Of a stretch of 64,000 nucleotides of DNA, positions 8,834 through 37,794 are shown piece after piece (the stretch's first letter is position 1; each line of letters opens with the position of its first letter). The notes beneath the pieces were generated by a model that was not told the DNA's origin, did not search any database, and was given only the letters and a program-made list of their open reading frames with translations. This stretch comes from Alphaproteobacteria bacterium (GTDB lineage: Bacteria; Pseudomonadota; Alphaproteobacteria; Caulobacterales; Parvularculaceae), in assembly GCA_030433215.1 (NCBI GenBank), contig JAUIMC010000011.1, positions 62,001-126,000 on the forward strand, in the 5' to 3' direction. A program made the translations under genes and the position numbers.

Positions 8834-8848
8834 GAGAGAAGCCGACCC

Positions 8849-10213: not shown

Positions 10214-10285
10214 CCGCTCATTCCGGCGAAGGCCGGAATCTTCTTCGTTTTTGCACGAGACCCCGACCTTCGTCGGGGTGAGCGG
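10214..10285. repeat. REP/BIME-like inverted repeat pair, copy 1
   Basis: A 27-base element at 10214-10240 begins CCGCTCATTCCGGCGAAGG and is internally palindromic. A diverged inverted partner at 10259-10285 ends GTCGGGGTGAGCGG. The same 27-base family, better conserved, occurs at 34769-34854. Both pairs lie in intergenic DNA just after a transcription unit. This fits repetitive extragenic palindromes, possibly acting as terminators or mRNA-stabilising hairpins. Confidence 0.75.
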
Positions 10286-10322
10286 GATAGCGGCTCGTGA
10301 CGCGGACGTCTCGCCCGGTGTA

Positions 10323-11456: not shown

Positions 11457-11474
11457 TGATTCACGTGCGATTCG

Positions 11475-11504
11475 TTGACAAAAGGCGAAGCTGCTTCATT
11501 AGAT
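11475..11504 (+). promoter_or_regulatory. candidate sigma70-type promoter
   Basis: A perfect TTGACA at 11475-11480 is followed after an 18-base spacer by TTAGAT at 11499-11504. It lies in the 110-base gap between the divergent anmK and creatininase genes and points toward the latter. The -35 is exact and the -10 weak. Confidence 0.4.
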
Positions 11505-11566
11505 GCGACCGTCCCCAGATAATGGCAAATCGGTTGTAACAACAACACTAAAACACGGTGAAAATC

Positions 11567-12319: not shown

Positions 12320-12411
12320 CCGCAGCGCGGCGGCGTCACTGAGCCATAATTTCGTTGGAAAACAGGGCTTCGCGTGCTAGGTCCGGCGCCTTCTGAAAAT
12401 CGAGAAAATCC

Positions 12412-13665
12412 ATGACGGCCGGCAAAAAATACAAATCCGACTTCCTGAACGTGCTCGAAGAGCGCGGCTTCATCGCGCAAGGCACCAATCTCGAAGGATT
12501 GGACGAGAAAGCCGCCGCCGGCGTCGTCACCGCCTATATCGGCTTCGACGCGACGGCGAAGTCGCTGCATGCGGGCAGCCTGATCCAGATCATGATGCTC
12601 TACTGGCTGCAACAGACAGGGCACCGGCCGATTGCGCTGATGGGCGGCGGCACCACCAAGGTGGGCGATCCGACCGGCAAGGACGAGCAGCGAAAGCTCC
12701 TCACCGACGCCGACATCGCGGCCAATATTGACGGCATCAAGACCGCCTTCGACAAGTTTCTGACCTTCGGCGACGGCCCGTCAGATGCGGTCATGGTCAA
12801 TAATGACGACTGGCTGTCGAAACTCGGCTATGTGGAATTCCTGCGCGACTATGGCGTGCATTTCACGATCAACCGCATGCTGACTTTCGACTCGGTCAAA
12901 TTGCGGCTCGACCGCGAAAGCCCCATGACGTTCCTCGAATTCAACTACATGCTGATGCAGGCCTACGACTTTCACGAACTTCTGGGCCGTTACAACTGCA
13001 CGCTGCAAATGGGCGGCACGGATCAGTGGGGCAATATCGTCAACGGCGTCGAGCTGTGCCGCCGCAAGGACGCCGCCGAGGTGTTCGGCCTGACGACGCC
13101 GCTACTCACCACCGCGTCCGGCAAGAAGATGGGCAAGACGGAAGGCGGCGCGATCTGGCTCAGCCCCGACATGACGTCGCCCTATGATTACTGGCAGTAC
13201 TGGCGCAACGCCGAAGACGCGGATGTGGCGACGCTGCTGGCGCGCTTCACGACCTTGCCCATGGACGAGGTGCGCCGGCTCGCCGCGCTCGACGGCGCGG
13301 AAATCAACGAGGCCAAGAAAGTGCTGGCGACAGAGGCGACCGCGCTTCTCCATGGCCGCGAGGCGGCGGAAAGCGCCGCCGGCACGGCGCAGAAGACCTT
13401 CGAGCAAGGCGGGCTCGGCGGCGATCTGCCGACCATCGACATGAGCGCAAACGATCTTGAAGGCGCAGCGGTCATCGATCCGTTTCTGGCTGCCGGTCTT
13501 TGCGCCTCAAAGGGCGAAGCGCGCCGTCACATCAAGGCCGGCGCGTTGAAGGTGAATGACGAACCGGTGCGCGAAGAGCGTGCGCTGTCGGCCAGCGACA
13601 TTCGCGACGGCTCGGTGAAGCTTTCCATCGGCAAGAAAAAGCACGCGATCATCCGCGTGCAGTAA
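12412..13665 (+). CDS. tyrS: tyrosyl-tRNA synthetase
   Basis: Class I aminoacyl-tRNA synthetase charging tRNA-Tyr. The 417 residues include the HIGH-equivalent HAGSL, the tyrosine-binding [10 protein letters not shown], the KMSKS-equivalent KKMGKT, and a C-terminal S4 RNA-binding domain (about 350-417, with [18 protein letters not shown]). Length is normal for TyrS type 1. It is convergent with the DUF3971 gene, ten bases away. Confidence 0.97.
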
Positions 13666-13675
13666 CTGTTGCGCT

Positions 13676-21790: not shown

Positions 21791-21805
21791 TTAATGAGCT
21801 GTTAA
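21791..21805. promoter_or_regulatory. CtrA-type binding site
   Basis: TTAA, seven bases, TTAA: an exact match to the alphaproteobacterial CtrA core. It lies 53-67 bases upstream of the FliO-like gene and overlaps the stop codon of the glycosyltransferase fusion gene behind it. Confidence 0.6.
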
Positions 21806-23973
21806 GCACGTTTGTCGGGATCGCCGTAAAACGCCCGAAGGTCAGGCAAGGAAAGGATTTCGCCGCCCAGCGCCTCCCGGAACCAGGATAGGTAGGCTGC
21901 GCTTGTCGTAAAGATTTTATCCGCACCCGGCCCATCCGGCGCATAAGGCCCCGCGCCCGGCGTCAGGGACGTCGAATGCAGCGTAAAGGTCAGCACCGGC
22001 GCGCCGCCCGCAATGACGGAACGAGTCAGCGCCTGCAAATCCTCCAGCGCCGCGCCTTCGGGCGACAGGCGCATGGGGATTTTGAAGCGCGAGAGCGGAT
22101 CTTTTTTGTAGGGCGCAAAGCCCGGTTCCTGTTTTTCCTGCGAGAGAAAAACCCGCGTGCCGCGCAGCGCCTTCGCGCCGGTGACGGGCGTCACGTAAAG
22201 ACGGCCCCCGCCGCTTTGCGCCAGAAACGGCTTGTTGGAAACAGCCGAAAAATCCGGCCCGCCGCGCGAAGAAAAATCGAACGCGGCGCTGGGGCTGAAA
22301 TCATGAGACAGCCCCGCTTCGGCAAGCAGCGCGTAATCGGCGCGCCCGATGCCGTACCGCCCGGCGCGATGGGCGAGCGCTTTCTCCCCGAACACCTCCT
22401 CGAACAGCGCCGCAAGAGTTTTCAGTTTTTCGCCATAGGCCGCGCGCGGCAGGTTTTTCTGAAAGGAAAAATATTCGCCGGTGAAATTTTCCGGCGGCGT
22501 CGTCCATTGATGAAGATGCAGGCCGAAATCCGCCTCGCTCGCGCGCGCCATGCTCTGGAAACAGGAGACCGCGCTCGCATCTTTCAGCATCGGCCAGGTG
22601 AGAAAGTAAAGCGGCGCGGCGCCTTCTTCACGGCAAAGCGTCTGGAACCGCTCGACACCGTCCAGGGCGCCGACGCGGTAGTCTTGCGCATCAAAGCGGC
22701 GCCAGTCGAATTCTTCTTCCGTATCCACGGTCACGATCAGGCGCGGTCGCTTGTCGTTTTCATCTAAAGAGAGCGGCGCAGTTTCCAGCGCCGAAGCCGC
22801 GCGCGCCTTGTCTTCAAGCTCGCGGAAGATCGCCTGCATGCCGTCGGCGGTTTCTTCCCAGGAATGTTTTTCGGCGTATGCGCGCGCCGCCTTGCGCCCC
22901 GAGGGTGAGGCGAGAAGATCTTTCACCGCATCGGCGACAGCCGCGGGCGTTCTTTCTTTCGCAAGCCGGCCCGCTTCGGGCGCGGCGATCACCTCGCTCG
23001 TCCCCCAGACATTGCTCGCGACACAAGGCGTGCCGCAGGCCATGGCTTCGAGCAGGACATTCGGCCATCCCTCGCGCGAGGAGGCGAGCACAAGAATGTC
23101 GGCGGCGGCGTAAACGCCCCGCAAGTCGTCATGGTTCGCCTGGCCCAGAAACCGCACGCGGGTCTCGACGCCCGCCAGCCTCGCCCGCGCCGCCAGCATC
23201 TTGCGCTCCGGCCCCTCCCCGACGATCAAGAGCGTCGCAGACGGCAGGTCTTTCAGCGCGTCGATGACGACGCCATGGCCTTTGCGTTCGATGAGCTGAC
23301 CGACGCTCGCGAGCACCAGTCCGTCGAGCCCGAGGACGCGCCGCTCCGCCTCCCGGTCGGCGGGCGAGAATTTTTCAAGGTCGACGCCATTGCGCAGAAC
23401 CGTAATGTTTTCCGAAGGCGCGCCGATGCGCGCAAGCTCCTGCTTCAGGGCGTCCGCGACAGCGATCACCGCATCGGCGCGCCAGACGGCGTTAAGGATT
23501 TTCGCCCGCGGCCCTTCATAGGCGGGCAACAGATTGACGTCAGTGCCGCGCGCCGTCACCGCGAAAGGCTTGCCGAGCTCGCGCGCGACTTCCGCCGCGG
23601 CGGCGCCGTCCGGATAGACATAATGAGCGTCGATGAAATCGAAATCCCATCCTTCGGCGATCAAGCGCTGCGCCTGCCGGCGCAGGCATCGCGTTAACGC
23701 GGCGGGCGCGGCCTGCATGCCGAGTTTCGGCGGAATGAAAAAGCGCGGATGAAAGACCTCGACGCCGTCGCGGATTTCCATGCGCGGCGCGCGGGCATAG
23801 GCGCCGTAGCGCCCGAACAACGGATGGCCGATGGGGAACCAGGGAACCGGCGCGACGACCTTCACCTCCGCATCGTATTTGCGGCGATAGGCGCTGAGGC
23901 GGTTCTCGACAAAGATCCCGTGCGAGGGCGCCGCCGCGTTCGGAAAGAGCGTTGAAAAGACAAGAATGCGCAT
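21802..23973 (-). CDS. GT4 glycosyltransferase fused to a WalW-type deacetylase-like domain
   Basis: A 723-residue two-domain protein. Residues 1-395 are a GT-B family 4 glycosyltransferase: FSTLFPNAAAPSHGIFVENR at the start, GEGPERKML, and the C-terminal donor site SSREGWPNVLLEAMACG. Residues 409-723 are a polysaccharide-deacetylase-like (WalW) domain opening LIVTVDTEEEFDW with HLHQW, AHRAGRYG and a late FTLHSTSL. In many genomes these are two separate neighbouring genes, so the fusion is notable. The ATG at 23973 is chosen because the glycosyltransferase fold starts there. It is divergent from the exopolysaccharide operon and probably modifies its product. Confidence 0.87.
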   Translation of the reverse strand: MRILVFSTLFPNAAAPSHGIFVENRLSAYRRKYDAEVKVVAPVPWFPIGHPLFGRYGAYARAPRMEIRDGVEVFHPRFFIPPKLGMQAAPAALTRCLRRQAQRLIAEGWDFDFIDAHYVYPDGAAAAEVARELGKPFAVTARGTDVNLLPAYEGPRAKILNAVWRADAVIAVADALKQELARIGAPSENITVLRNGVDLEKFSPADREAERRVLGLDGLVLASVGQLIERKGHGVVIDALKDLPSATLLIVGEGPERKMLAARARLAGVETRVRFLGQANHDDLRGVYAAADILVLASSREGWPNVLLEAMACGTPCVASNVWGTSEVIAAPEAGRLAKERTPAAVADAVKDLLASPSGRKAARAYAEKHSWEETADGMQAIFRELEDKARAASALETAPLSLDENDKRPRLIVTVDTEEEFDWRRFDAQDYRVGALDGVERFQTLCREEGAAPLYFLTWPMLKDASAVSCFQSMARASEADFGLHLHQWTTPPENFTGEYFSFQKNLPRAAYGEKLKTLAALFEEVFGEKALAHRAGRYGIGRADYALLAEAGLSHDFSPSAAFDFSSRGGPDFSAVSNKPFLAQSGGGRLYVTPVTGAKALRGTRVFLSQEKQEPGFAPYKKDPLSRFKIPMRLSPEGAALEDLQALTRSVIAGGAPVLTFTLHSTSLTPGAGPYAPDGPGADKIFTTSAAYLSWFREALGGEILSLPDLRAFYGDPDKRA

Positions 23974-24319
23974 GGCGGGCCCTGAGGTCAGCGCATGGCG
24001 CGCTGGCGCCGGCACCCTATCGCGCGAGGCTTTAAAAAGCGCTTTAACCGAAACGACGCCCTGCCTCATCCAGGCCCGCCGATCCCACCTTGGCCCGGCT
24101 TATCCCGAAACGGCACATTTCAGCGAATAAGGCGCGCATTCGCCGCCTTCGCCGCAACCCCAGGCGGCGCCCCGCTTCCCGCCCGCCGTTAATTTTTCGT
24201 TAGGCATGCATTGTGCGGGAAAGCCCCGTGAACGTCGCATTCCGGGACGGTCACGGCCCAATCCAGCGCGAAGGCCGCGCCGCCCGGCGGGATTGAAGGC
24301 AGAGTTTAGGGCGCGGGAG
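23974..24319. other. divergent intergenic region before the EPS operon
   Basis: This 346-base gap separates the fusion glycosyltransferase from the sugar transferase and must hold promoters for both. I see one candidate signal: TTAA-N7-TTAG at 24189-24203, one base from a CtrA site, 117-131 bases upstream of the sugar transferase. The left part could encode in-frame extensions of the fusion protein, but they have no homologous look. Confidence 0.4.
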
Positions 24320-25117
24320 ATGTTTTCTCAGTTCGCAGCAGCATTTGCATTGGCCGCCAGCGGCGCCATCGCCTCTTCAAGGCTGATCTTTTCTCCAAAG
24401 ACCCGGAAACGGCGCGACGGCCAGCTATATCGCGACAGCCAAGGGTTTAAGCCAGCGCCCGCCGGCGCCGTCGATCTCGGCCGGGTCAGCCTGCGGGACT
24501 ATGAAGCCGCCGCCCGGAAAATCGCCGCGCCTTCTTCAAGCCGTCTCAAAAGATGCCTCGATATCATCTTGAGTTTAGGCCTTGTTTTCTCGCTAGCGCC
24601 CTTGCTGCTCATGACGGCGGCCGCGATCAGGCTCGACAGCCGCGGGCCCGTTCTTTACCGCCAGCGCCGGGTCGGCCAGGGCGGCGCCGAATTCGACGTC
24701 TTCAAATTCCGGTCGATGTTCATGGGATCGGAGCCGAACGGCCCGCAATACGCCGCCATCCGGGACCCGCGCATCACCCGCGTCGGACGCTTCATCCGCA
24801 AATTCAGGATCGATGAAATTCCGCAGACGATCAATGTGTTGCGCGGTGAAATGAGCTTTGTGGGTCCGCGTCCGGAACGTCCGGAATTCGTGGCGGAGCT
24901 GGAACGCGAGATCCCCAACTATCATTGCCGCCATCTCGTGAAGCCAGGCATCACCGGCTGGGCTCAGGTTAAATACGAATATGCGGCCTCGGTCGAAGGC
25001 GCGCGCACCAAGCTGCGCTATGATCTTTACTATATCCGCCATTTTTCCCCATTTCTGGACCTTCTGATCGTCCTGATGACCGTTCGCGTGGCGCTTTTCG
25101 GCATTGGCGGGCGCTAG
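24320..25117 (+). CDS. undecaprenyl-phosphate sugar phosphotransferase
   Basis: A 265-residue bacterial sugar transferase that starts polysaccharide synthesis by transferring a sugar phosphate to undecaprenyl phosphate. The catalytic domain begins KRCLDIILSLGLVFSLAP (membrane or re-entrant helix) and contains DVFKFRSM, the DE catalytic pair in RIDEIPQ, and MSFVGPRPERPEF. The large polytopic N-terminal part of WbaP-type enzymes is missing, leaving about 85 variable residues. The ATG at 24320 is the most plausible start. It heads the XrtA-type locus. Confidence 0.92.
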   Translation: MFSQFAAAFALAASGAIASSRLIFSPKTRKRRDGQLYRDSQGFKPAPAGAVDLGRVSLRDYEAAARKIAAPSSSRLKRCLDIILSLGLVFSLAPLLLMTAAAIRLDSRGPVLYRQRRVGQGGAEFDVFKFRSMFMGSEPNGPQYAAIRDPRITRVGRFIRKFRIDEIPQTINVLRGEMSFVGPRPERPEFVAELEREIPNYHCRHLVKPGITGWAQVKYEYAASVEGARTKLRYDLYYIRHFSPFLDLLIVLMTVRVALFGIGGR

Positions 25118-25327
25118 GCGGAACCATCGCCGCCCGACTCCGGTTTTGAGAGGAATCAGCCGACAGGAGCGAAAGCCAATTCCCGCGGGAAATCTTGTTG
25201 TTACGCGGGATTGCGCTTTGCGCAGTGCAGGGGGAGGCATGGCAAAGATTTTGCGTTGCCTTTAGACTGACATGGGATTTTGAGGGGCCGTTGCGCCGGC
25301 CCGACGCTCATTGGACGCCATAGGGAT

Positions 25328-25978
25328 ATGACCATGATTAAGATTAACGACATGATCCGCGCCGCCGCGGCGCTCGCCGCCGCTGCAACGCTCGCCGCCT
25401 GCGACACGATGGGGCTGGGCGGCGAACAGCTTCAGGCTGCGCCGACAAACACCTCCGACGCCGCCAGCACGGCGCCGGACTACCTCATCGGACCGCTCGA
25501 CCGGCTCGAAATTTTCGTCTGGCGCGCGCCGGAGCTTTCCACCAACGTCACCGTGCGCCCGGACGGACGCATTTCGACGCCGCTGGTGGAAGACATGGTG
25601 GCCGCGGGCAAGACGCCTTCCGCCCTCGCCGGCGACCTTGAAGGGGTGTTGCGCGAATATGTGCGCACGCCGGAAGTCACCGTCATCGTCAGCAACTTCT
25701 CGTCGACCTATGACCAGCAGGTTCGGGTCCTCGGCGAAGCGCAGCAGCCGATCGCGCTGCCGTTTCAGGCGGGCATGACCGTGCTCGACGTCATGGTCGC
25801 CGTGGGCGGGCTCACCGAATTCGCCGCCGGCAACCGCGCGGTCCTGATCCGCGGCCAGGGCGAGGATCGCCAGTCTTACCGCCTTCGTCTCAACGATCTC
25901 CTGCGCAAGGGCAATATTTCGGCGAATGTGCCGGTCCTGCCGGGCGACGTGATTTTGATCCCCGAAAGCGCGCTCTAA
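25328..25978 (+). CDS. XrtA-type polysaccharide export lipoprotein (Wza-like)
   Basis: A 216-residue outer-membrane export protein. The N-terminus is a lipoprotein signal with lipobox LAAC near residue 25. The Poly_export domain follows (YLIGPLDRLEIFVWR), then an SLBB part (QQPIALPFQAGMTVLDVMVAVGG). The short length without a long C-terminal helix region is typical of the exosortase-associated subfamily. A 210-base gap upstream may hold an additional promoter. The chain-length gene starts 34 bases downstream. Confidence 0.93.
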   Translation: MTMIKINDMIRAAAALAAAATLAACDTMGLGGEQLQAAPTNTSDAASTAPDYLIGPLDRLEIFVWRAPELSTNVTVRPDGRISTPLVEDMVAAGKTPSALAGDLEGVLREYVRTPEVTVIVSNFSSTYDQQVRVLGEAQQPIALPFQAGMTVLDVMVAVGGLTEFAAGNRAVLIRGQGEDRQSYRLRLNDLLRKGNISANVPVLPGDVILIPESAL

Positions 25979-26012
25979 CGAGCCGCGGTTCGGGTCCCCG
26001 GGGGAAAGCGTA

Positions 26013-27554
26013 GTGTTCAAGTTCTCCGATCTGCCTCAGCCGGTTCTGCGCGGCCTTAACGGGCTCTGGCGCCGGCGCTGGCTGGTGGTCGCCGTCGCCT
26101 GGGGCGCGGCGCTCGCCGGCCTTCTGGCGGTGTGGCTGATCCCGGACAAATATGAATCGCGCGCGCAGGTTTTCGTGCAGACGGAAACCATCCTCGAGCC
26201 CGTGCTCAACGGCTTCACGGCGCGCCCGGATTATTCCCGGCGCGTCGAAGTCATGCGCCTGCAGCTTCTGACCCGCCCGAATGTGGAGGAGATCATTCGC
26301 CGCGCCGGCCTCGACAAAACCATCGAGGCAAACAGCCCGATGGAGCGGCGCGTGAAGATGCAGAGCATGGTCGACAAGGTCGCTGAGCAGATCAACATCG
26401 AAAGCCCGCGGGAGATGTATTTCATCATCTCCTATAAGAACAGCGATCCGCAAATCGCCCGCGCCGTCGTCGATGCGGTGCTCAATATGCTGATCGAACA
26501 GGATCTCGGCGCCAGCCTTTCCGAAAGCGAAGCCGCACGCCGGCGCCTCGATCGCCAGGTCGAGGAGTATGAAGAAAAACTCACCGCCAATGAAAACGCG
26601 GTTGCAGCCTTCCGCGCCCAGCATGCGAGAGAACTCGCGGCCAGCCAGGGCGCGCAGCGCCAGCGCGAATTGAAGGAAAACGAACTGGTGCGCGTCAGCG
26701 ACGAGCTCGAGCGCACCAAGGGCCGGGTCCTCACCTTGCAGAACCTGATGTCGGCGACCCCGCGTCACGCGGCGGGCGGCGAGCTCGACCGGCTGAAAGT
26801 GGAGCTCGCCTCCCTGCGCAGCCAGTATGAAGAAAACCATCCCGATATTCGCGGCGTCAAAGCGCGCATCGACGAAATCGAAAAGGAAGACGCCGCGCTT
26901 TCCGCCAATCCGGAATATGTGCGCCTGCGCTCCGAATTGCGGGTCGCCGAAGACTCGGTCGTCGCGCTCGGCGCGCGCGAGGCTCGCCTCAAGGAAGAGC
27001 TCGACGCGCTCGACATCGCCGCGGGCCAGGCGCCGGCTGTCGAAGCCAAACTTCGCCAGATCGTGCGCGAATATGAACAGACGCAAAAGACCTATGAAGA
27101 ACTGCTGTCGCGCCGCGACCGCCTCGACCTGACGCGCAATCTCGGCGCGGCGGGACGCGGCGTCGAATATCAGGTGTTCGAATGGCCGTCCGTGTCGCTG
27201 GCGCCCAGCGATCCGCCGCGCCTTCTGCTGATCATCGGCGTGTGCATCCTCGCGGCGGGCGCGGGAACCGGCGCCGCCGTCGTTCTGACCCTGCTCGACA
27301 AGAGCTATACGCAGGCGAGCGAACTGCAATCCGCCTTCGGCCTGCCGGTGCTGGGCGCGATCAGCGAAACGCCGTCCGAAAACGTCTTTGCGATGCGCAG
27401 GCGCGATCATATGCGGCTCGCCATGGCCTCCGCCGGGTTCGTCGCGGTCGCCGCGCTCTACGCCTATCTGACTGTGTTCCGCCTGCCCTCGACGGCGCCA
27501 ATCATGGCCGAAAAATCGGCGCAGCTTTCTGTCAGTATTGGAGCCGCGTCATGA
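26013..27554 (+). CDS. XrtA-type chain-length determinant (Wzz/Wzc N-part)
   Basis: A 513-residue polysaccharide co-polymerase. One membrane helix near residues 25-43 and a second pair of hydrophobic segments (about 405-425 and 468-490) bracket a long periplasmic coiled coil (about 160-380). The Wzz-type start KYESRAQVFVQTETILEP and PSDPPRLLLI before the last helices fit the PEP-CTERM-locus subfamily. It lacks the kinase domain, which is encoded by the next gene. A GTG start follows a GGGGGAAAG site. It overlaps the kinase gene by four bases. Confidence 0.92.
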   Translation: MFKFSDLPQPVLRGLNGLWRRRWLVVAVAWGAALAGLLAVWLIPDKYESRAQVFVQTETILEPVLNGFTARPDYSRRVEVMRLQLLTRPNVEEIIRRAGLDKTIEANSPMERRVKMQSMVDKVAEQINIESPREMYFIISYKNSDPQIARAVVDAVLNMLIEQDLGASLSESEAARRRLDRQVEEYEEKLTANENAVAAFRAQHARELAASQGAQRQRELKENELVRVSDELERTKGRVLTLQNLMSATPRHAAGGELDRLKVELASLRSQYEENHPDIRGVKARIDEIEKEDAALSANPEYVRLRSELRVAEDSVVALGAREARLKEELDALDIAAGQAPAVEAKLRQIVREYEQTQKTYEELLSRRDRLDLTRNLGAAGRGVEYQVFEWPSVSLAPSDPPRLLLIIGVCILAAGAGTGAAVVLTLLDKSYTQASELQSAFGLPVLGAISETPSENVFAMRRRDHMRLAMASAGFVAVAALYAYLTVFRLPSTAPIMAEKSAQLSVSIGAAS

Positions 27555-28492
27555 GCTTGATCGAAAAAGCCGGCGCCACGGTCCTCAAAGGCTCCTTCGA
27601 CAAGAAGGAGAAGAAGAAAGACGCGCCGAAGAAGAAACCGGCCGCTTTGAAGGCCGAGGCCGAAACGAATGCGCCGGCGCCCGAACGCGCGCCCTTCGAT
27701 CTCGATTTCGCGGCTCTTGCGAAAGAAGGGATTTACAATCCTGACGACCGGTCGAGCCAGCTGGCGCTGGAACTGCGCGCGGTCAAGCGCCGCCTCCTGC
27801 GCCGCATCGGTTATCTGCGCGCGTCCGCCGAGCGCAAGGCGTTTCGGTCGGGCGGCAAGCCGCGCAATCTGATCCTCGTCACCTCGACGCGGGCCGGCGA
27901 AGGCAAGACCTTCACGGCGATCAATCTCGCGCTCAGCCTCGCTTTCGAAGACCAGATCGAAACCCTCCTCATCGACGCCGACATGGCGCGCCCGAAAGTC
28001 CGCGAAAGACTGTCCCTGCCGTCGGCGCCCGGACTTGCCGACTGCATCATGGACCGGGAACGCGATGTCGAGGCCATGGGCTGGCGGGCGCGGCGCGCGC
28101 CGCTTTCGGTCCTGCCCGAAGGCGACCGCTTCAACCGGCCGACCGATCTCTTCGCGGCGGAAAAGGCCCAGGACCTGTGGACCGACATCGCCCGCGCAAA
28201 CCCGAACCGCCTCGTCATTGTCGACGCGCCGCCGGTGCTCGCCGCCACGGACGCGGTCATGCTCGCCAGATACGCCGATGAAATCGTCTTTGTCGTGGAA
28301 GCGAACTCGACGCCGGAGCCGGCGGTCGCGGCCGCGGTCGACGAACTGATCGACATCAACCCGAATATCAGCCTGATGCTCAACCGCTGCCAGATCGGGG
28401 CCGGCGGCGCTCATTACGGTTCCTACGAGTATTATGATCGCAGCGAGGCCGCGCCAGCGCCCGCCGCAGCCACCCCCTCAAGCGAAGGATAA
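27551..28492 (+). CDS. XrtA-type tyrosine autokinase (CpsD/CapB-like)
   Basis: A 313-residue BY-kinase. After a Lys/Ala-rich linker (KKEKKKDAPKKK) the P-loop domain has Walker A TRAGEGKTF, Walker A' LLIDADMARP and Walker B LVIVDAPPVL. The C-terminus has a tyrosine cluster (HYGSYEYYDR), the expected autophosphorylation site that controls oligomerisation with the chain-length protein. The ATG overlaps the previous stop (ATGA). It pairs with the preceding protein to make a split Wzc. Confidence 0.93.
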   Translation: MSLIEKAGATVLKGSFDKKEKKKDAPKKKPAALKAEAETNAPAPERAPFDLDFAALAKEGIYNPDDRSSQLALELRAVKRRLLRRIGYLRASAERKAFRSGGKPRNLILVTSTRAGEGKTFTAINLALSLAFEDQIETLLIDADMARPKVRERLSLPSAPGLADCIMDRERDVEAMGWRARRAPLSVLPEGDRFNRPTDLFAAEKAQDLWTDIARANPNRLVIVDAPPVLAATDAVMLARYADEIVFVVEANSTPEPAVAAAVDELIDINPNISLMLNRCQIGAGGAHYGSYEYYDRSEAAPAPAAATPSSEG

Positions 28493-28496
28493 TCCC

Positions 28497-30191
28497 ATGG
28501 GGCAGCCACGCAAAAAACCGAACTTCAAAACGCCGCGCGCAAAGAAAATCCTGCTCGCGTCCGCCGCGACAGCGGGCTTTGCCGGCGCCGCGCTCGCACA
28601 GGCGACCAATCCTTCCGCGCCGCTTAAAATGCAAACCGATTATCTGGGTTACGCTGCCGGCGTTTCCTTGCGCGCGGGCTATTCGGACAACATCAATCTA
28701 CAACGCGGCGCCCTGAAGGAAGACGAGTTTTATCTTTCCACGCTTCTCACCGGCGGGGCCGTGGTTTCGACGCCGCGTGTGACCGGCCTCGTTATCGGCG
28801 ATCTCGATTTTTCCTATCTCCTCAATGAGAGCGACTTCCGGGTCAGCCAGAACATCGCCGCCACAAGCACGTTCACCGCTGTCGAGAACTGGCTTTATTT
28901 TGACCTTTCCGGCTCCACCAGCCGCCAGCTTGTGGGCGACAACGCCCGGTTTTCCGGCAACATTAACGCCGCGCGCAATCAGCAAGCGAATGTTCACACC
29001 TATTCCGCAAGCCCTTACGTCTTTCACGAGTTCGCCGATCAATCGACCACGGAAGTGCGCTATCGCTTTTCCCAGGTGCTGGTGGATGACGACAGGTCTT
29101 TGTCATCGATCCTTTTCGGCGGCTCCATCAACGATTCCGTCACGCATGAAGCGCTGGCGCAATATAATACCGGCTACAAATTCGACCGGGTCCGCCTGAC
29201 CCTCACCGCCTATGGGAGCGATACGTCAGAGGACGGCGTCGCGCCCTTCCCCGATTTCGGCTACCGTCAGGGCTCGCTTTCGGCCTCCGCGCAATATGCG
29301 CTGAGCAATCATTTCTCGCTTTCCGGCGGCGTCGGTTATGACGAAGTCGAAAACAAGGGCGCGTCCGCTCTCTTCTTCAGCGACGACGAGCTTTCCGGCT
29401 TCTTCTGGCGCGCAGGCTTCTCCGCCGAACCCGGCCCGCGGTCGTCGATCCGCCTTGAATACGGCCAGCGCTATGGCGATGACTTCATCGAAGCCAGCGC
29501 CCGCTATGACATCTCTGATCGCTTCTTGTTCACGGCGGCGGCAAGCCGCTCTTTCCGCACGCGCGCGCAATCCATCACCTCACAGTTTCAATCGACCCAG
29601 CGCGATGCGCTGGAATTCGCCGACCGGCTTCGCGAAGGCGCCGAACTCGACCCTCGCGGGGTCATCGAATCAGCGAACTGGTTCGTCAGGGGCCGCGCGG
29701 GCGGTCAGGCGCAGACCACCGGCGTCGCGGTCTCCGACCACGCCACCGCCTCGCTGATCGGCGATTTCGACCGCACCCAGATCTCGCTCAACGGCTATTA
29801 TTCCGATGACGATTTCGGCTACCGCCAGGTCAACTCCATCGGCGGCGGCCTGAATGTGCGCCGCAGCGTGTCGCGTCAGATCACCGGCTACGGCTCCGTC
29901 ACCTATCGTCACATAGACAGCTCGTTCGATATCGCCACCTGCGAAGCGAACCCGTTGGTGTTCGGCTTTGACCCGTCCGACCCCTTGTTCGATCCCATGA
30001 CGGCCTGCGCAAACCGCGTCGCGAATAACGGCGTCACCAACACGCTGGTCAGCCGGATCGGCGCCTCCTACCGGCTTTATGAAAACGCATCCGTTTTCGT
30101 CGAGGGCTCGCATACGGAACGCTTCGCGCGCAATCCCGCGCTCGAATATGGCGAAAATTCCATTTTGGCCGGGATCACCTTGGACTTCTAA
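28497..30191 (+). CDS. XrtA-locus outer-membrane beta-barrel protein
   Basis: A 564-residue exported protein. A basic start (MGQPRKKP) leads into a signal peptide ending AALAQA near residue 38. The rest shows regular beta-barrel alternation with aromatic girdles (for example SLRAGYSDNINLQRG and YRQGSLSASAQYALS) and ends LAGITLDF, with a terminal Phe as BamA substrates need. It corresponds to the outer-membrane family found only in PEP-CTERM/exosortase polysaccharide loci. Its likely role is export or anchoring of the polymer. AAGGA precedes the ATG. Confidence 0.88.
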   Translation: MGQPRKKPNFKTPRAKKILLASAATAGFAGAALAQATNPSAPLKMQTDYLGYAAGVSLRAGYSDNINLQRGALKEDEFYLSTLLTGGAVVSTPRVTGLVIGDLDFSYLLNESDFRVSQNIAATSTFTAVENWLYFDLSGSTSRQLVGDNARFSGNINAARNQQANVHTYSASPYVFHEFADQSTTEVRYRFSQVLVDDDRSLSSILFGGSINDSVTHEALAQYNTGYKFDRVRLTLTAYGSDTSEDGVAPFPDFGYRQGSLSASAQYALSNHFSLSGGVGYDEVENKGASALFFSDDELSGFFWRAGFSAEPGPRSSIRLEYGQRYGDDFIEASARYDISDRFLFTAAASRSFRTRAQSITSQFQSTQRDALEFADRLREGAELDPRGVIESANWFVRGRAGGQAQTTGVAVSDHATASLIGDFDRTQISLNGYYSDDDFGYRQVNSIGGGLNVRRSVSRQITGYGSVTYRHIDSSFDIATCEANPLVFGFDPSDPLFDPMTACANRVANNGVTNTLVSRIGASYRLYENASVFVEGSHTERFARNPALEYGENSILAGITLDF

Positions 30192-30192
30192 A

Positions 30193-31599
30193 ATGTATGA
30201 AGAGTATTTCCGGCTGACAGACGCGCCGTTCCGGCTCAACCCGGACCCGCGCTTCTTTTACGGTAGCCGGAGCCATAACAAGGCCATGGCCTATCTTCAT
30301 TACGGCGTGAAGCAGGCCGAAGGCTTCATCGTCATCACCGGCCCTGTGGGCGCGGGCAAGTCGATGGTGATCGGCCATCTCCTCGACCAGCTCAATGCGT
30401 CGAATGTCGTCGCGGCCAATCTCCTGACATCGAATATCGAACCGCAGGACCTTTTGAGCCAGATTCTTTCGGCGTTCCGCATCGAGGCCGAAGGCGAAGG
30501 GCGCGCCGGCGAAATCGAGGCCTTCGAGGATTATCTGTTCGACCAGCTCAATCACGGACGCCGGGTTCTTCTCATCATCGACGAGGCTCAGAACCTGCCT
30601 TTCAAGACGCTTGAAGAGCTGCGCATGCTGTCGAACATCGACTATGAAGGCACGCCCCTGTTTCAGGTGTTTCTGGTCGGCCAGCCGGAATTCCGCGAGA
30701 CCATGGAAGCGCCCAATATGGAGCAGCTTCGCCAGCGGGTGATCGCGTCCTATCATCTCGAACCGCTGACGGCGGAGGAAACCCGCGATTACATTCTCCA
30801 CCGCCTCGCCGTCGCGGGATGGCGCGAAGACCCGGCCTTCACCAAAGGCGCGTTCAAGGCGATCCACGCGGAAACACACGGCCTGCCGCGCCGCATCAAC
30901 ACCCTCGCCAACCGCCTGATGCTCTATTGTTCGCTGGAGAAAACCCACGAAGTCACGGCGAAGGTCGTGGAGACGGTGAGCGCGGAGCTGCGCGACGAAA
31001 GTCTTGAAGCCCGCCAACCGGCGGAAGAGAAACAGCCCCCCGCCCCCCAGGCCGCGCAGACCGAAGAACCGCCTGTCCAGGCGCAGGACGAAGAAGAAAG
31101 CGCCGTCGCCCCTTCAGGGGAAACGCCCGCGGAAACGAAACTCGCGGACATCAAGGATGCGGTCGTCCTGTCTCTCGACGAAGCGCGTGAAGAAACGCCC
31201 GAGCCCGCGCCGCAAGAGAAAGAAAACGAAAACCCGAAACCCCGTGTCGCCCTGTCCTCTTCCTTGAGCGTTCTTGATCGGCTGCGCGCGAAAAAGCCGG
31301 AAGAAGAGGAGCGTCAGGAAGCGACGCTCACCGACGTCGCAAGCGCCATCGCCGCGGCGTCCGCCGCGAATGAAGCAGCGGCGGCAAGCGAAACCGCCGA
31401 CGCCCCGCAACCGGCGCCGCGGCGCAGAGGGCTGCGCGGGACGCTCGACGAGGCGCGCGACGAGTTGAAACAGGCGAACGGCAAGGTCGTGCGCCTTGTC
31501 AGCGCCGCTGAAAAATCCCGCGCCCGCCGCGCCGACATCGCGCAAAGCCTTTCCCGCGCCGAAAGCCTCCTCAGCGAACTGCGCCAGGCGCGGCCTTAA
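30193..31599 (+). CDS. XrtA-type ExeA-like ATPase with long C-terminal extension
   Basis: A 468-residue AAA ATPase starting MYEEYFRLTDAPFRLNPDP, the typical opening of the PEP-CTERM-locus secretion ATPases. Walker A GPVGAGKSM and Walker B LLIIDEAQNL are intact, and a GLPRRINTLANR sensor region lies near residue 240. Usual members end near residue 270-300; this one has some 190 additional residues, acidic and Pro-rich first (EEKQPPAPQAAQTEEPPVQ), then a predicted coiled coil at the end. It starts one base after the barrel gene. The extension may bind an inner-membrane partner. Confidence 0.92.
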   Translation: MYEEYFRLTDAPFRLNPDPRFFYGSRSHNKAMAYLHYGVKQAEGFIVITGPVGAGKSMVIGHLLDQLNASNVVAANLLTSNIEPQDLLSQILSAFRIEAEGEGRAGEIEAFEDYLFDQLNHGRRVLLIIDEAQNLPFKTLEELRMLSNIDYEGTPLFQVFLVGQPEFRETMEAPNMEQLRQRVIASYHLEPLTAEETRDYILHRLAVAGWREDPAFTKGAFKAIHAETHGLPRRINTLANRLMLYCSLEKTHEVTAKVVETVSAELRDESLEARQPAEEKQPPAPQAAQTEEPPVQAQDEEESAVAPSGETPAETKLADIKDAVVLSLDEAREETPEPAPQEKENENPKPRVALSSSLSVLDRLRAKKPEEEERQEATLTDVASAIAAASAANEAAAASETADAPQPAPRRRGLRGTLDEARDELKQANGKVVRLVSAAEKSRARRADIAQSLSRAESLLSELRQARP

Positions 31600-31611
31600 G
31601 GCGCGACGCTG

Positions 31612-32484
31612 ATGCAAGCGCCAGCCGCCATAACCGCCGTCAAAGACCGGCCCCGCTTCGCCCTGTCGGTGGATGTGGAGGATTATTTTCAGGTCTGGGC
31701 GTTTTCCAACACCGTCTTGCGGGCGTCCTGGGACGGTTTTTCCCTGCGCGTCGGCGACAATACGCGCCGCTGTCTCGATCTGTTCGATGCGCACGGCGCC
31801 AAGGCGACATTTTTCACGCTCGGGTGGATCGCAGAGCGCGACCCCGGCCTCGTCACGGAAATCGTCGCGCGCGGCCACGAACTGGCGAGCCACGGTTATG
31901 ACCACACCAAAGTTACGGCGCAGACCCGCGATCAATTCTTAGACGACGTGAAAAAGACCAAGGCCCTGCTCGAAGACATCGCCGGAGTGGAAGTCAAAGG
32001 CTATCGCGCCGCCGGCTTTTCCATCGGGCCCGAAACGCCCTGGGCCCATGAAGCGCTGGCGGAAGCCGGTTATGGCTATTCCTCCTCGACGCACCCCATA
32101 GCGCACGACCATTACGGCGACGCGCAAGGGCCCCAATCGCCATACGCAACGGCGGCGGGCCTCATCGAAGCGCCGGTCGCAACGCTTAATCTCTTCGGCA
32201 AGCGCGTCAGCGCCGCCGGCGGCGGCTGGTTCCGCGCGGCGCCTTATGCGCTCTCGAAAGCGCTGCTGACGAAAGCGTCGGAAAGCCTCAAAGGCCCCGC
32301 GATCTTTTATTTCCATCCCTGGGAGATCGACCCGGAGCAGCCGCGCCTCAACCGCGCGCCTTTGAAGTCAAAGGTCCGGCATTATCTCAACCTCTCGACG
32401 ATGGAACGAAAACTCTCGCGCCTGCTTTCGGATTTTTCCTGGGGCCGGGTCGACGCGGCCTTGGCGCCGGGAGGCGACGCATGA
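31612..32484 (+). CDS. XrtA-type polysaccharide deacetylase
   Basis: A 290-residue NodB-fold deacetylase. The metal-binding SVDVEDYF gives the catalytic Asp pair, and the H-x4-H motif is ELASHGYDHTKV. YRAAGFSIG and FYFHPWEID complete the active site, with a DUF3473-type C-terminus. There is no signal peptide, as is usual for this subfamily. It probably removes N-acetyl groups from the growing polymer or its lipid-linked unit. It overlaps the FemAB-like gene by four bases. Confidence 0.93.
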   Translation: MQAPAAITAVKDRPRFALSVDVEDYFQVWAFSNTVLRASWDGFSLRVGDNTRRCLDLFDAHGAKATFFTLGWIAERDPGLVTEIVARGHELASHGYDHTKVTAQTRDQFLDDVKKTKALLEDIAGVEVKGYRAAGFSIGPETPWAHEALAEAGYGYSSSTHPIAHDHYGDAQGPQSPYATAAGLIEAPVATLNLFGKRVSAAGGGWFRAAPYALSKALLTKASESLKGPAIFYFHPWEIDPEQPRLNRAPLKSKVRHYLNLSTMERKLSRLLSDFSWGRVDAALAPGGDA

Positions 32485-33548
32485 CCGCCGCACCCGCCTT
32501 AGAAGCGTCGCCGCTTGAGATCAAACAAAGCAAGACATGCGACCGCGCGCGCTGGGATGGCTTTGTCCGCGCGCACACGCAAGGAACTTTCTTTCACCTC
32601 TCCGGCTGGGGCGAAGCGGCGAAGCGCGCCTATGGCTATGACGCGCATTACCTCACCGCCGAACGCCATGGCGAGCTTGCCGGCGTGTTGATGCTGTCCG
32701 AAGCGCGCACGCCGCTGCTCGGCGCCTCGCTTGTCTCGACGGCCTTTTCCGTCGGCGGCGGGCCCCTCGCCGATGACGAAGAAATTTTGGCCGCGCTTCT
32801 GGACGCCGCCGCAGAATTGGGCGCGCAAAGGCGCGTCAGCTATGTGGAATGCCGTTCCGATTTCGAGGCGCCCGGCTGGGAACAAAAAACCGGCCTTCAC
32901 GCGACATTCGACGGCCCGATTGTCGAGGACGATGAAGAAGCCCTCGCCGCCATCCCGAGAAAACGCCGCGCGGAAATCCGCAAGGCGCTCGATGCGGCGG
33001 ACAAAGGCGAGATCGCCATCCGCCATGACGGCGAGGCGGATCTTTTTTACCGGTTCTATGCGCAGTCCCTGCACGGGCTCGGCACGCCGGTTTTTCCGAA
33101 GCGTTTTCTCGATGCGCTGCTCAGCGAGTTTTCACAGGAAACGGAAATCTCGGTGGTGGAATATCGCGGCAAACCGGCAGCCGCGCTGGTCAGCTTTTAT
33201 TTCAAGGACACGGTCCTGCCCTATTATGTGGGCGCAGGCGAGGAAGCGCGCGCGTCCCGCGCCTTCGATTATCTCTACTGGTCCGTGATGCGCCGCGCCG
33301 CAGAAAAGGGCTGCACGCATTTCGATTTCGGCCGCAGCAAGATCGCCAGCGGCGCCTATGCCTATAAAAAACTCTGGGGCTTCGAGCCGCGCCCGGTCTC
33401 TTACGGGGTGAAGCTTATCGGCGCGGGCGAAATGCCCGACGTCAATGCGAACAATCCGAAATTCGCGCTGTTCGCAAAGCTATGGCCGCATCTGCCGCTT
33501 TCCGTCGCGAACCGGCTCGGTCCGCTCCTGGCTCCGAATTTTCCATGA
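32481..33548 (+). CDS. XrtA-type FemAB-like acyl/aminoacyl transferase
   Basis: A 355-residue protein with a double GNAT fold. The N-terminal half has a FemAB-like opening (RARWDGFVRAHTQGTFFHLSGW) and the second GNAT half has FYRFYAQSLHGLGTPVFPKRF and HFDFGRSKI, both conserved in the PEP-CTERM-locus FemAB family. It may attach an amino-acyl or acyl group to the polysaccharide. Four-base overlaps on both sides place it within one tight operon. Confidence 0.9.
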   Translation: MTAAPALEASPLEIKQSKTCDRARWDGFVRAHTQGTFFHLSGWGEAAKRAYGYDAHYLTAERHGELAGVLMLSEARTPLLGASLVSTAFSVGGGPLADDEEILAALLDAAAELGAQRRVSYVECRSDFEAPGWEQKTGLHATFDGPIVEDDEEALAAIPRKRRAEIRKALDAADKGEIAIRHDGEADLFYRFYAQSLHGLGTPVFPKRFLDALLSEFSQETEISVVEYRGKPAAALVSFYFKDTVLPYYVGAGEEARASRAFDYLYWSVMRRAAEKGCTHFDFGRSKIASGAYAYKKLWGFEPRPVSYGVKLIGAGEMPDVNANNPKFALFAKLWPHLPLSVANRLGPLLAPNFP

Positions 33549-34744
33549 CGCGTGAAATTCTGTTTCTGGCGCATCGCATCCCCTATCCGCCGGACAAGGG
33601 AGACAAGATCCGCTCCTGGCGGTTGTTGAAGTTCCTGACGCAGCGCTTCCGCGTGCATCTCGCCTGTTTCGCCGACGATGACCGCGACCTTGCGCATCGG
33701 GATTTTCTGGAAAGCCTTTGCGAGAGCGTGACCATCATCCCGCTCGATCCGAAAACGGCGCGCCTGCGCAGCGCCAAGGGCTTGCTCACCGGCGAGCCTT
33801 TAAGCTCCCACTATTTCCGCGATGCGCGCATGACCGCCGCAGTGCGCGAGATCAGGCAAAGACCGCTCGTCGCCGAAATCGTCTTTTCCTCCTCCATGGC
33901 GTCCTATATCGAAAAGCCGGTCGACGGGCGCAAACGCCTTGTGGATTTCTGCGACGCCGATGCGGAAAAATGGCGCGGCTATGCGGCGACCGCGAAAGCC
34001 CCCATGCGCCTTGTCTACGCCCGCGAAGCGCAAAGACTGGCGCAGGAAGAAACGGCGATCGCAAACTGGGCTGATGCGAGCTTCGCCATCACCCCGGACG
34101 AAGCCGCGATCTTCAATGCGCGGCCGGGAATGACAAAGACCGTCGACTGGTATCCGAACGGCGTCGACGCCGATTATTTCGATCCGGCCTTCGCACCGCC
34201 GGGCGCGGTGATGCCTTACAGCGATTGCGTCTTTGTGGGCGCCATGGACTACCGCGCCAATATGGGCGCCGTTTTTTATTTTCTCGATCGTGTCTGGCCA
34301 ATGGTTCGCGAGGCGAACCGGGATGCGCGCTTTGCGATTGTCGGCGCCAATCCCAGCGCTTCGATCATGGCGCTCGCCGGCCCCGACGGCGTCGTCGTCA
34401 CGGGCCGTGTCGAGGATGTGCGCCCCTGGCTTGCGGGCGCCAAGACCGTCATCGCGCCCTTGCGCGTGGCGCAAGGGATCCAGAACAAGGTGCTTGAAGC
34501 CATGGCGATGGCAAAGCCGGTTATAGCGAGCCCGCAAGCGATGACCGGGCTCGACGCGCCTCAAGACGCCGCCGCGGTCGCGTCGGCGCCCGAAGACATG
34601 GCCGCGGCGATCAATGCGCTTTTGCAGGATGAAATGAAGCGCCGCGCCATGGGCGATGCGGCGCGGCGCTATGTGCTCGAAAACTATCAATGGGATGCGG
34701 CGCTTGATCGCTTTGAAAAAGCGCTGAAAGCGCTTGGCCTTTAA
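33545..34744 (+). CDS. XrtA-type GT4 glycosyltransferase
   Basis: A 399-residue GT-B glycosyltransferase of the subfamily next to exosortase genes (stp1-like). It starts TREILFLAHRIPYPPDKGDKI, with a C-terminal donor site including VAQGIQNKVLEAMAMAKPV. The ATG overlaps the FemAB stop (ATGA). In typical loci the exosortase follows this gene; here a REP-like pair and then an unrelated gene follow, so the operon ends. Confidence 0.93.
   Translation: MTREILFLAHRIPYPPDKGDKIRSWRLLKFLTQRFRVHLACFADDDRDLAHRDFLESLCESVTIIPLDPKTARLRSAKGLLTGEPLSSHYFRDARMTAAVREIRQRPLVAEIVFSSSMASYIEKPVDGRKRLVDFCDADAEKWRGYAATAKAPMRLVYAREAQRLAQEETAIANWADASFAITPDEAAIFNARPGMTKTVDWYPNGVDADYFDPAFAPPGAVMPYSDCVFVGAMDYRANMGAVFYFLDRVWPMVREANRDARFAIVGANPSASIMALAGPDGVVVTGRVEDVRPWLAGAKTVIAPLRVAQGIQNKVLEAMAMAKPVIASPQAMTGLDAPQDAAAVASAPEDMAAAINALLQDEMKRRAMGDAARRYVLENYQWDAALDRFEKALKALGL

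Positions 34745-35127: not shown

Positions 35128-37794
<2,667 letters not shown>

Follow-up and report, generated by a model that had tools for sequence, protein, structure and literature searches.

Exopolysaccharide loci of the XrtA (EpsH)/PEP-CTERM type (Haft et al. 2006, PMC1569441) are the closest described relatives of the locus analysed here. The locus shares with them, as they are presented in the portions of that paper used here, the content and order of nine genes, the Cys, Arg and His residues of XrtA, an amidotransferase gene after xrtA, and a PEP-CTERM-like tail on the proposed substrate. It departs from the same account in that xrtA was beside stp1, the final gene of the polysaccharide block, in none of the 39 family genomes carrying both, and in that a single PEP-type tail, borne by a frame-split gene, was found here, compared with a median of eight PEP-CTERM proteins per genome. 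A second exosortase system, XrtD/VPLPA-CTERM (TIGR04152), is also present in this genome, on contig C21; the tails that fit it here are of VPLPA type and not frame-split, and the system is dispensable for the frame-split gene.

The frame-split gene itself is best compared with the bacterial -1 frameshift cassettes of dnaX and insertion sequence (IS) elements, with which, according to the parts of PMC5009743 and PMC4066793 consulted, it shares a Z_ZZN slip site, an upstream Shine-Dalgarno (SD)-like element and a downstream stem-loop. A 0-frame stop immediately after the slip site is known from the same sources for some dnaX genes. Unlike the cassettes covered there, the slip site here is a tetramer with a stop codon at once after it, and a small protein with a hydrophobic segment at its N-terminus would gain an exosortase signal through the shift. 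Searches of the open-access literature, with few subscription papers, returned nothing joining PEP-CTERM with frameshifting, exosortase with ribosomal frameshifting, or programmed frameshifting with sortase and C-terminal.

The polysaccharide block and its surroundings

The window, a stretch of 64,000 nucleotides from a genome of the Parvularculaceae, was searched with NCBIfam profiles, which identified an XrtA-type exopolysaccharide block of nine plus-strand genes at positions 24206-34744 (Table 1). Six of the nine passed curated cut-offs, and the other three matched the expected model or its parent below the cut-off. Six consecutive scores above curated cut-offs leave little room for chance, and the set, order and place of the genes given in the initial annotation were borne out. 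Its description of the junctions as mostly one- to four-base overlaps was overstated: three of the eight junctions are overlaps, each of four bases (at 27551, where the autokinase gene overlaps the chain-length gene by ATGA, at 32481, and at 33545, where stp1 begins within the FemAB-like gene), and the other five are gaps of 1, 4, 12, 34 and about 160 bases. The best NCBIfam match of the sugar transferase was TIGR03025 (295.2 bits, cut-off 295.55), followed by TIGR03013 (293.4 bits, cut-off 393.35), of which only profile positions 253-443 of 443 were covered; PF02397 gave 215.7 bits. The first ATG of this gene is at 24206, and the true start may be later (24320 in the initial annotation).

Table 1. 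Features of the polysaccharide block and the genes on either side of it, in window positions
Feature	Position	Strand	Remarks
Divergent 755-aa protein with GT4 domain	21802..24069	-	Beside the block also in relatives
Sugar (polyprenyl-phosphate) transferase	24206..25117	+	Short form, catalytic domain only
Polysaccharide export lipoprotein	25280..25978	+	TIGR03027, 226.7 bits, above cut-off 180; exact start uncertain
Chain-length determinant	26013..27554	+	TIGR03007, 323.6 bits, above cut-off 278.85
XrtA-associated tyrosine autokinase	27551..28492	+	TIGR03018, 165.3 bits, below cut-off 230.65
Outer-membrane barrel	28497..30191	+	TIGR03016, 86 bits, slightly below cut-off 90.85
XrtA-associated ATPase	30193..31599	+	TIGR03015, 338 bits, above cut-off 324.5
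Polysaccharide deacetylase	31612..32484	+	TIGR03006, 379.5 bits, above cut-off 276.2
FemAB-like protein	32481..33548	+	TIGR03019, 345.3 bits, above cut-off 260.35; 4-base overlap with deacetylase gene
GT4 glycosyltransferase stp1, final gene of the block	33545..34744	+	TIGR03087, 468.2 bits, above cut-off 316.65
clpB, in the exosortase's usual place after the block	35128..37794	-	TIGR03346, 1416.5 bits

The gene order of the block is common to ten family loci, as far as the DNA of each extends. The gene for the 755-aa protein was found at the equivalent position in eight of these ten; the DNA of the other two (L037 and L040) starts inside the block. As the initial annotation had stated, neither an exosortase nor an amidotransferase gene follows stp1; opposite-strand clpB is located there instead, as it also is 3' of the block in four of the ten family loci (L031, L032, L037 and L040).

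XrtA is encoded apart from the block throughout the family

The initial annotation had described the locus as lacking its exosortase and allowed that the enzyme might be encoded elsewhere. The latter was right, and as a statement about the whole genome the former fails: XrtA is encoded on contig C17 at 4900-6435 (TIGR03109, 215.8 bits, cut-off 208), and XrtD and XrtE on contigs other than C17. A TIGR03108 amidotransferase gene lies directly 3' of xrtA (724.6 bits, below the cut-off of 816.9), and the contig also carries an opposite-strand glycosyltransferase gene. Cys186, Arg231 and His252 were invariant in all seven aligned family XrtA sequences, in agreement with the motifs given in the consulted part of PMC1569441. 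The order acs-xrtA-amidotransferase was repeated in G045, G020, G005 and G089. The polysaccharide block itself is ordinary, with its exosortase elsewhere in the genome.

This arrangement was then compared across 62 family genomes, 42 of which were counted as good. Both stp1 and XrtA were present in 39 of the 62, with the two genes on different contigs in 36 and on the same contig but more than 500 kb apart in three, at distances of 571 kb, 527 kb and about 2.8 Mb, the last measured on a 3.47 Mb contig of G045 and reducing to about 0.67 Mb if that contig is circular. When the best 80 of 383 relatives were taken, xrtA was found within 2.5-10 kb downstream of the block in none of the 10 family loci, and directly after the stp1-equivalent gene in 51 of the 70 other named loci. 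Because stp1 and xrtA are separate in all 39 family genomes with both, the separation of block and xrtA is old and family-wide.

Sorting signals in this genome

The PEP-CTERM model gave 17 matches in this genome at E<=1, 11 of them over the cut-off. These 11 and the xrtA gene on C17 would suit a plain split locus, in which the distant XrtA acts on whatever ordinary sorted proteins the genome encodes and nothing else is special, yet none of the 17 tails has PEP at the motif position; they read VPLPA, VPVPA, TPIPA, APIPG and similar, and are therefore probably targets of XrtD, which is VPLPA-specific according to its NCBIfam name and is encoded on C21 with 492.6 bits against a cut-off of 400. 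Beside xrtD are a TIGR03015 ATPase and a PrsT-like protein, both below cut-off, and genes read as a chain-length protein (weak PF02706, below cut-off) and an autokinase (P-loop domain). Genomes with only one of the two exosortases show the same tendency: 13 and 5 matches were found in G084 and G015, which have XrtD over the cut-off and no XrtA, and one match each in G005 and G050, which have XrtA and no XrtD. In favour of a plain split locus, G045 has XrtD but just two matches, which indicates that the number of matches is not set by XrtD alone. Taken together, we regard a plain split locus as unlikely.

The initial annotation had held that an exosortase with PEP-CTERM substrates elsewhere in the genome would make this an ordinary split locus. 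The exosortase is there, and the substrates are subtler, with VPLPA-type tails among the model matches and the sole PEP-type tail in a frame-split gene that the same search missed at E<=1. This gene is located on the minus strand of contig C26 (13469-12880), and its tail has a DAPEPG motif, a hydrophobic stretch and a basic end. The tail scored 15.4 bits against PF07589, below the cut-off of 20.7, and matched no NCBIfam model, TIGR02595 included, at E<=0.1; its assignment rests on the DAPEPG motif, the hydrophobic stretch and its relatives. Among three other tails of frame-split genes that were scanned, L129 passed both PF07589 and TIGR02595, L130 passed TIGR02595 only, and L133 matched neither. 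In the 36 complete -1 frame tails (L160 left out), the motif was PEP in 33, AEP in two and SEP in one. If the product of this gene is a substrate, model searches can evidently miss substrates: the PEP-CTERM model here gave VPLPA-type tails and overlooked the frame-split gene at E<=1.

The frame-split gene accompanies XrtA

The frame-split gene was found in 38 of the 62 family genomes, that is, in 38 species genomes of five genera (g1, g3, g4, g6 and g32). It was single-copy in 37, and G074 had one extra weak match (E = 0.006). In a class-wide sample of 385 genomes, with scoring limited to 15 candidates in each, it was found in one, namely this one. Among the 42 good genomes it was present in 24 with XrtA and in none without (Fisher p = 5.8e-8, kinship ignored). 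It was absent from four good genomes with XrtA, three of genus g2 plus G144, and XrtA was not found in three genomes with the gene (G151, G171 and G173), all less than 90% complete. The gene was also present in G005, G020 and G129, where an XrtD match at E<=1e-30 was absent. We consider the product of the frame-split gene likely to be the dedicated substrate of XrtA. XrtA may also process further proteins overlooked by the models.

Both sides of the junction are conserved in their own frames

In all 38 copies the N-terminal part ends in U_UUY followed by a stop codon, and in the 37 not truncated by a contig end the -1 frame after the junction has a PEP-CTERM-like tail. The slip site, of Z_ZZN form, is T TTT in 37 copies and T TTC in one, and the 37 junction stops counted in the 0 frame comprise 21 TAG, 10 TGA and 6 TAA. 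No stop interrupts a stretch of 85 codons in the -1 frame in any of 36 copies, or the 39 codons available in L160. Across 36 rows read upstream in the 0 frame, entropy at the three codon positions was 0.07/0.01/1.04; across 37 rows read downstream in the -1 frame, it was 0.45/0.40/1.05. Synonymous and non-synonymous codon differences numbered 3771/163 upstream in the 0 frame and 2854/2585 downstream in the -1 frame, whereas the best of the other frames gave 848/4340. Both sides change in a protein-like way, each in its own frame. Pseudogene decay or recurrent sequencing error, the usual cause of frame-split genes, would be in line with the additional in-frame stop upstream of the intact slip site in L179 (G153), but is contradicted by these comparative data and by one common site with three different stop codons in 38 species genomes of five genera, and we give it virtually no probability.

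Alternatively, ribosomes could re-initiate where the N-terminal part stops and translate the C-terminal part as a gene of its own, with no frameshifting. A TTG does overlap the stop (TTGA) in the ten loci with a TGA stop, but in 27 of 37 the codon at this position is TTA or CTA, neither of them a start codon, and the C-terminal part alone would have no N-terminal hydrophobic segment, so that re-initiation seems very unlikely. The Leu codon at the junction in the -1 frame is TTA in 26 of 37 copies; in a set of 13 genes from this genome, TTA accounts for 5 of 659 Leu codons.

Candidate stimulators of a -1 shift

In 24 of 37 copies (raw count), GAGGG lies upstream of the slip codon with its end exactly 14 nt away. 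With six permissive SD-like pentamers allowed, 35 of 37 matched (raw count), some spaced outside 9-14 nt, and none was found in L182 and L183. The published SD spacing for -1 frameshifting is 9-14 nt (PMC5009743, in part), and slip tetramers rank A_AAG >> U_UUC > U_UUU in E. coli (PMC4066793, in part); the slip site and SD spacing fit these published rules. Downstream, a stem-loop lying within coding sequence, derived from the same alignment as was used to test its pairing, had four pairs changed on both sides, compared with 1.1 in shuffles (0/500 as high). A version shifted by one column still had two such pairs. Paired cells amounted to 98.2% versus 97.4% in shuffles, a share barely above them because most columns are invariant. 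Single-sequence folds of five loci gave z of -1.1 to -4.2, with L169 unremarkable at -1.1, and no Rfam match was found in four loci. The upstream element and downstream stem-loop suggest a programmed -1 frameshift. By the passages of PMC4066793 used here, the slip motif by itself is weak in E. coli, where just 0.26-5.6% was obtained when shift-prone tetramers were combined with a strong stimulator.

A shifted mRNA could also arise from transcriptional slippage, since a T run is found at the junction of every copy and polymerase slippage on a T5C5 cassette, described in the consulted part of PMC5009743, makes a run of five possible. The run here is just five T (TTTCT in L169), compared with nine A or T in bacteria according to the same source, and slippage would need neither an SD-like element nor a ribosome-positioned stem. 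We consider this origin highly improbable.

Relatives without XrtA

In the sister genera g5 (six genomes) and g34 (three genomes), 89-95% complete, stp1 was present in all nine genomes and XrtA in none at E<=1e-48. All nine genes were present in the two g5 blocks that were read completely (G069 and G064), and the counterpart of the frame-split gene in g5 and g34 was unshifted and without PEP-CTERM. G134 had no XrtA, no stp1 and no such counterpart. The suggestion in the initial annotation that the polymer functions without protein sorting fits g5 and g34, and agrees with Methylobacillus sp. 12S, in which methanolan production was intact after epsH disruption (PMC1569441, in part). It is not needed for the present genome, where XrtA and a PEP-type tail are both present; here it is refuted unless XrtA is silent, and we see only a very slim chance that it holds.

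A proposed scheme and its meaning

We consider it likely that the block belongs to an XrtA/PEP-CTERM system whose components are dispersed along the chromosome family-wide, and that the substrate of this system would probably be made via -1 frameshifting. What the data establish directly is the gene content, the separation of block and xrtA, the co-occurrence and the conserved frame-split gene. The window block would provide polysaccharide synthesis and export, contig C17 xrtA, the amidotransferase and the opposite-strand glycosyltransferase, and contig C26 the likely dedicated substrate gene. Translation would pass through the N-terminal hydrophobic segment and the motif VGDIRNDIVVNCGCCG before ribosomes reach U_UUU (once U_UUC), with the 0-frame stop codon immediately after it. 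Part of the ribosomes would terminate there, giving a protein of about 75 aa, and others, aided by the upstream SD-like site and the downstream stem-loop, would slip -1 and add about 98-170 residues, proline-rich and ending in the PEP-CTERM-like signal. XrtA may then cleave the long form and hand the product to a polysaccharide-linked surface pathway. As the sorting tag is only on the shifted product, the frameshift would set the fraction of tagged protein.

We lean, on these comparative data, towards the broader proposal that programmed -1 frameshifting governs surface sorting, with a short membrane protein as the default and a set ratio of the long form with the exosortase signal, and that XrtA serves essentially this recoded protein in most Parvularculaceae, its counterpart being unshifted and without PEP-CTERM in the XrtA-less g5 and g34 and gone in G134. 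If true, this would join frameshifting to exosortase sorting, two fields that no paper in the literature searched brings together, and would be an unusual means of deciding the surface-directed share of a protein. A defined candidate substrate of XrtA in one family would make the effect of exosortase cleavage easier to test, and genera g5 and g34 offer natural controls for the polymer's need of sorting.

Exosortases lie away from the polysaccharide block

The source genome (3.75 Mb, 37 contigs, 98% complete) carries the window on contig C10, at bases 62001-126000. Judged by stp1, the last gene of the exopolysaccharide block, which encodes a GT4 glycosyltransferase (TIGR03087), its nearest named relatives among the best 80 of 383 were Marinicaulis flavus (73% identity) and other Parvularculaceae. 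The nine genes of the block were present as the initial annotation described, six above the NCBIfam cut-off and three under it. Its statement that most junctions overlap by one to four bases was too strong, as four-base overlaps occur at three of the eight junctions. The sugar transferase has no counterpart to the N-terminal half of TIGR03013, and the equivalent ORFs are likewise short in the genomes G069 (301 aa), G045 (267 aa) and G064 (303 aa).

The exosortase reported as missing from the locus was found elsewhere in the genome, as XrtA on contig C17; two other exosortases lie on C21 and C13.

Features of the polysaccharide block, the exosortases and the candidate substrate in the source genome
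Feature	Position	Strand	Score
Sugar transferase (TIGR03013)	window 24206-25117		
XrtA	C17:4900-6435		215.8 bits, cut-off 208
XrtA amidotransferase, TIGR03108	C17, directly after xrtA		724.6 bits, under cut-off 816.9
TIGR03088-like glycosyltransferase	C17, near xrtA	opposite	161.1 bits, under cut-off 409
XrtD	C21		492.6 bits, cut-off 400
XrtD system	C21:39001-59000 (L022), genes 3118-14041		
Exosortase E/CAAX-type protease fusion (XrtE, TIGR04162)	C13:1501-21500 (L023), 9084-11155		266.6 bits, cut-off 150
Frame-split gene	C26, ATG 13469, 0-frame stop 13244-13242, -1 frame end 12880	minus	

XrtD belongs to a second exosortase system. Its neighbours are two genes that score under cut-off, for an ATPase resembling TIGR03015 and a protein resembling PrsT, a WecG-type glycosyltransferase above cut-off, and two further genes that we read as encoding a putative chain-length protein and autokinase; a full exopolysaccharide block was not seen in the C21 stretch read. 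A partnership of XrtD with the block was not supported, as XrtA is the sole TIGR03109 match (E<=1e-30) in G005, G020, G025, G050 and G129, and all five retain stp1. On C13, a short ORF with VPEMDAG, to which no NCBIfam model matched, precedes the XrtE fusion and may be its target.

Separation of stp1 and xrtA is common to the family

Among 62 family genomes, stp1 (E<=1e-60) was found in 51 and XrtA in 42. The latter were above cut-off in 35, accepted by score alone in four (G074, G144, G030 and G156; 202-205 bits, cut-off 208), and under cut-off in three (G055, G139 and G089), which were counted because the amidotransferase adjoins. The two genes were on different contigs in 36 of the 39 genomes with both. 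In the other three, G045, G050 and G030, they lie on one contig more than 500 kb apart, which rules out an assembly break as the reason for the split. Separation of stp1 and xrtA is common to the family. The acs-xrtA-amidotransferase order was also found in G045 (on a single contig), G020, G005 and G089, and the xrtA-amidotransferase pair was kept in other surroundings in G055, G139 and G050.

We also compared 80 named stp1 loci (the best 80 of 383 relatives). Ten were family-like by similarity (L031-L040, the last titled Alphaproteobacteria only), and none had xrtA within the 2.5-10 kb of downstream DNA covered. Among the other 70, xrtA shared the strand of stp1 and lay no more than 1 kb from it in 51 (median gap 132 bases), farther away or reversed in 4, and not found in 12 with more than 2 kb of DNA downstream of stp1; 3 were too short for judgement. 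The 4 distant or reversed cases and the 12 without a match show that separation is not unique to the family. No xrtA match was seen within 7.5-10 kb downstream in five Methylomonas loci (L069, L077, L091, L099 and L101) and three of Magnetococcales (L056, L086 and L090), where the exosortase is split off or missing, or XrtA has diverged beyond the reach of the search. By itself, the observation that prompted this analysis amounts to an ordinary split locus.

A candidate XrtA substrate is split between two frames

In the source genome the PEP-CTERM model gave 17 matches at E<=1, 11 of them above cut-off; none of the 17 tails has PEP at the motif, and the endings are VPLPA-like. PEPxxWA-CTERM (NF035944) was rejected as the XrtA signal, with none of six matches above cut-off in this genome. 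PEP-CTERM counts were compared across 22 genomes at E<=0.1. G084 and G015, with XrtD above cut-off and XrtA absent, had 13 and 5 matches, G005 and G050, with XrtA alone, had 1 each, and G045, with both, had only 2, one being the frame-split gene. A relaxed search of six XrtA-only genomes (G170 so classed at E<=1e-48 only) gave 16 matches, with one tail per genome judged real by eye. The tail reads VPEP in G005, G020, G170 and G129 and VSEP in G050 and G025 (genus g2), and all four VPEP genes have their coding sequence divided over two frames at a shared position. The two g2 genomes have XrtA and lack the frame-split gene; common to both is another, single-frame protein (L131 in G050, L134 in G025) ending in VSEP, a hydrophobic stretch and a basic tail, which is perhaps their XrtA substrate.

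A profile built from four N-parts gave strong matches in 38 of the 62 family genomes and three weak ones, all in genus g34 (E 8e-7, 5e-8 and 2e-4); in a class-wide sample of 385 genomes, the source genome's copy was the sole match. This copy adjoins a lysozyme-like gene (PF00959, 126.2 bits), as in G045 and G129. Its C-part is proline-rich (32 Pro in 122 residues), and its tail, DAPEPG followed by a hydrophobic stretch and basic residues, scored 15.4 bits against PF07589 (cut-off 20.7) and matched no NCBIfam model; the homologous tail in L129 is above cut-off for both PF07589 and TIGR02595. Membership of the N-part in a known family was rejected, with no Pfam match in the two N-parts scanned and two NCBIfam matches (L133) under cut-off, and the C-parts matched PEP-CTERM-type models only. 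The main text of a 2013 frame-transition catalogue (PMC3711429) names neither Parvularcula nor exosortase.

The junction carries signals of a probable -1 frameshift

In all 38 genomes the 0 frame closes with U UUU (once U UUC) and an immediate stop. L179, with TAG at the slip site, was excluded from the counts of 37 because of an extra TAA upstream, and L184 and L185 were set aside as the same genomes as L160 and L168. The junction stop was TAG in 21, TGA in 10 and TAA in 6. The -1 frame continues with F-L, followed by an R-P-x-P stretch that varies little, runs for 98-170 codons in complete tails, and reaches PEP in 33, AEP in 2 and SEP in 1 of the 36 complete tails, which exclude the AEP of L160, whose tail ends at a contig end. 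The 0-frame stop restricts the -1 frame Leu at the junction to TTR or CTA; it was TTA in 26 of 37, a codon making up 0.8% of Leu codons in 13 source-genome genes.

In 24 of 37, the 3' end of GAGGG lies exactly 14 nt upstream of the slip codon. On the downstream side, a stem forms between CCCGCC and a GGCGGG some 55 nt further on, enclosing more pairs. Both-sided changes occurred at 4 pairs of this stem versus 1.1 in shuffles, and the paired-cell share was hardly over shuffles; the covariation is real but modest. Folds of five single sequences gave z from -1.1 (L169) to -4.2 (L148), and Rfam did not match the element in four loci. The tetramer and the SD-like spacing agree with rules set out in PMC4066793 and PMC5009743. 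Transcriptional slippage on the T run would instead yield a shifted mRNA; a passage of PMC5009743 on a T5C5 cassette raised the weight of this explanation, which we still consider very improbable.

The frame-split gene accompanies XrtA

Among the 42 good genomes (>=90% complete, <=5% contaminated), 24 had XrtA and the frame-split gene, 4 XrtA alone (G025, G030, G050 and G144), none the gene alone and 14 neither; the counts for all 62 were 35, 7, 3 and 17, and Fisher values for the co-occurrence ignore kinship. Genera g5 (6 genomes) and g34 (3 genomes) retain stp1, with no XrtA at E<=1e-48 in any and no exosortase signature at E<=0.01 in G064, G154 (g5) or G180 (g34); the three exosortases of these genera that were classified, from G079, G119 and G178, were nearest to XrtV and XrtB, under those cut-offs. 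All nine block genes are present in G064 and G069 (g5). A block without XrtA is consistent with the published result that Methylobacillus sp. 12S still produced methanolan after epsH disruption (PMC1569441). These g5 and g34 genomes are natural controls. G134, of the window's genus, gave matches to none of stp1, XrtA and the frame-split gene and retains an exosortase match with an XrtD-like score.

Beside the lysozyme-like gene, all five g5 genomes read, of six, have a single-frame ORF of 380-447 codons, whose hydrophobic start resembles the frame-split gene and which lacks PEP-CTERM. The three g34 counterparts are similar (359-380 codons), one (L189) being seen adjoining the lysozyme-like gene, and unshifted ORFs are also beside it in G030 and G025 (g2, with XrtA). 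The g5 and g2 genes are termed counterparts from position and similar start; only those of g34 match the N-part profile. No such ORF was recognised beside the lysozyme-like gene in G050, G015, G084 or G134. The unshifted counterparts of g5 (L206-L210), g34 (L188-L190) and g2 (L199-L200) share repeats like DKPDxxxFxTE, as judged by eye, and GSDY occurs close to the end of most of them.

Proposed role of the frame-split gene

A scattered XrtA system with a -1 frameshifted XrtA substrate is the explanation that we consider likely, with confidence lowered because the source genome's own tail is under cut-off. In the slip ratio, processing and roles that we infer for the short and long forms, some ribosomes would stop at the junction, giving a small protein whose N-terminal part holds a single hydrophobic segment, and others would slip, appending the proline-rich stretch and a PEP-CTERM-like signal. 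Processing of the long form by XrtA would take place on the outer side of the inner membrane, and the window's polysaccharide machinery would be the partner of XrtA. The frame-split gene appears well supported by comparative sequence and is the interesting outcome of following up the split locus.
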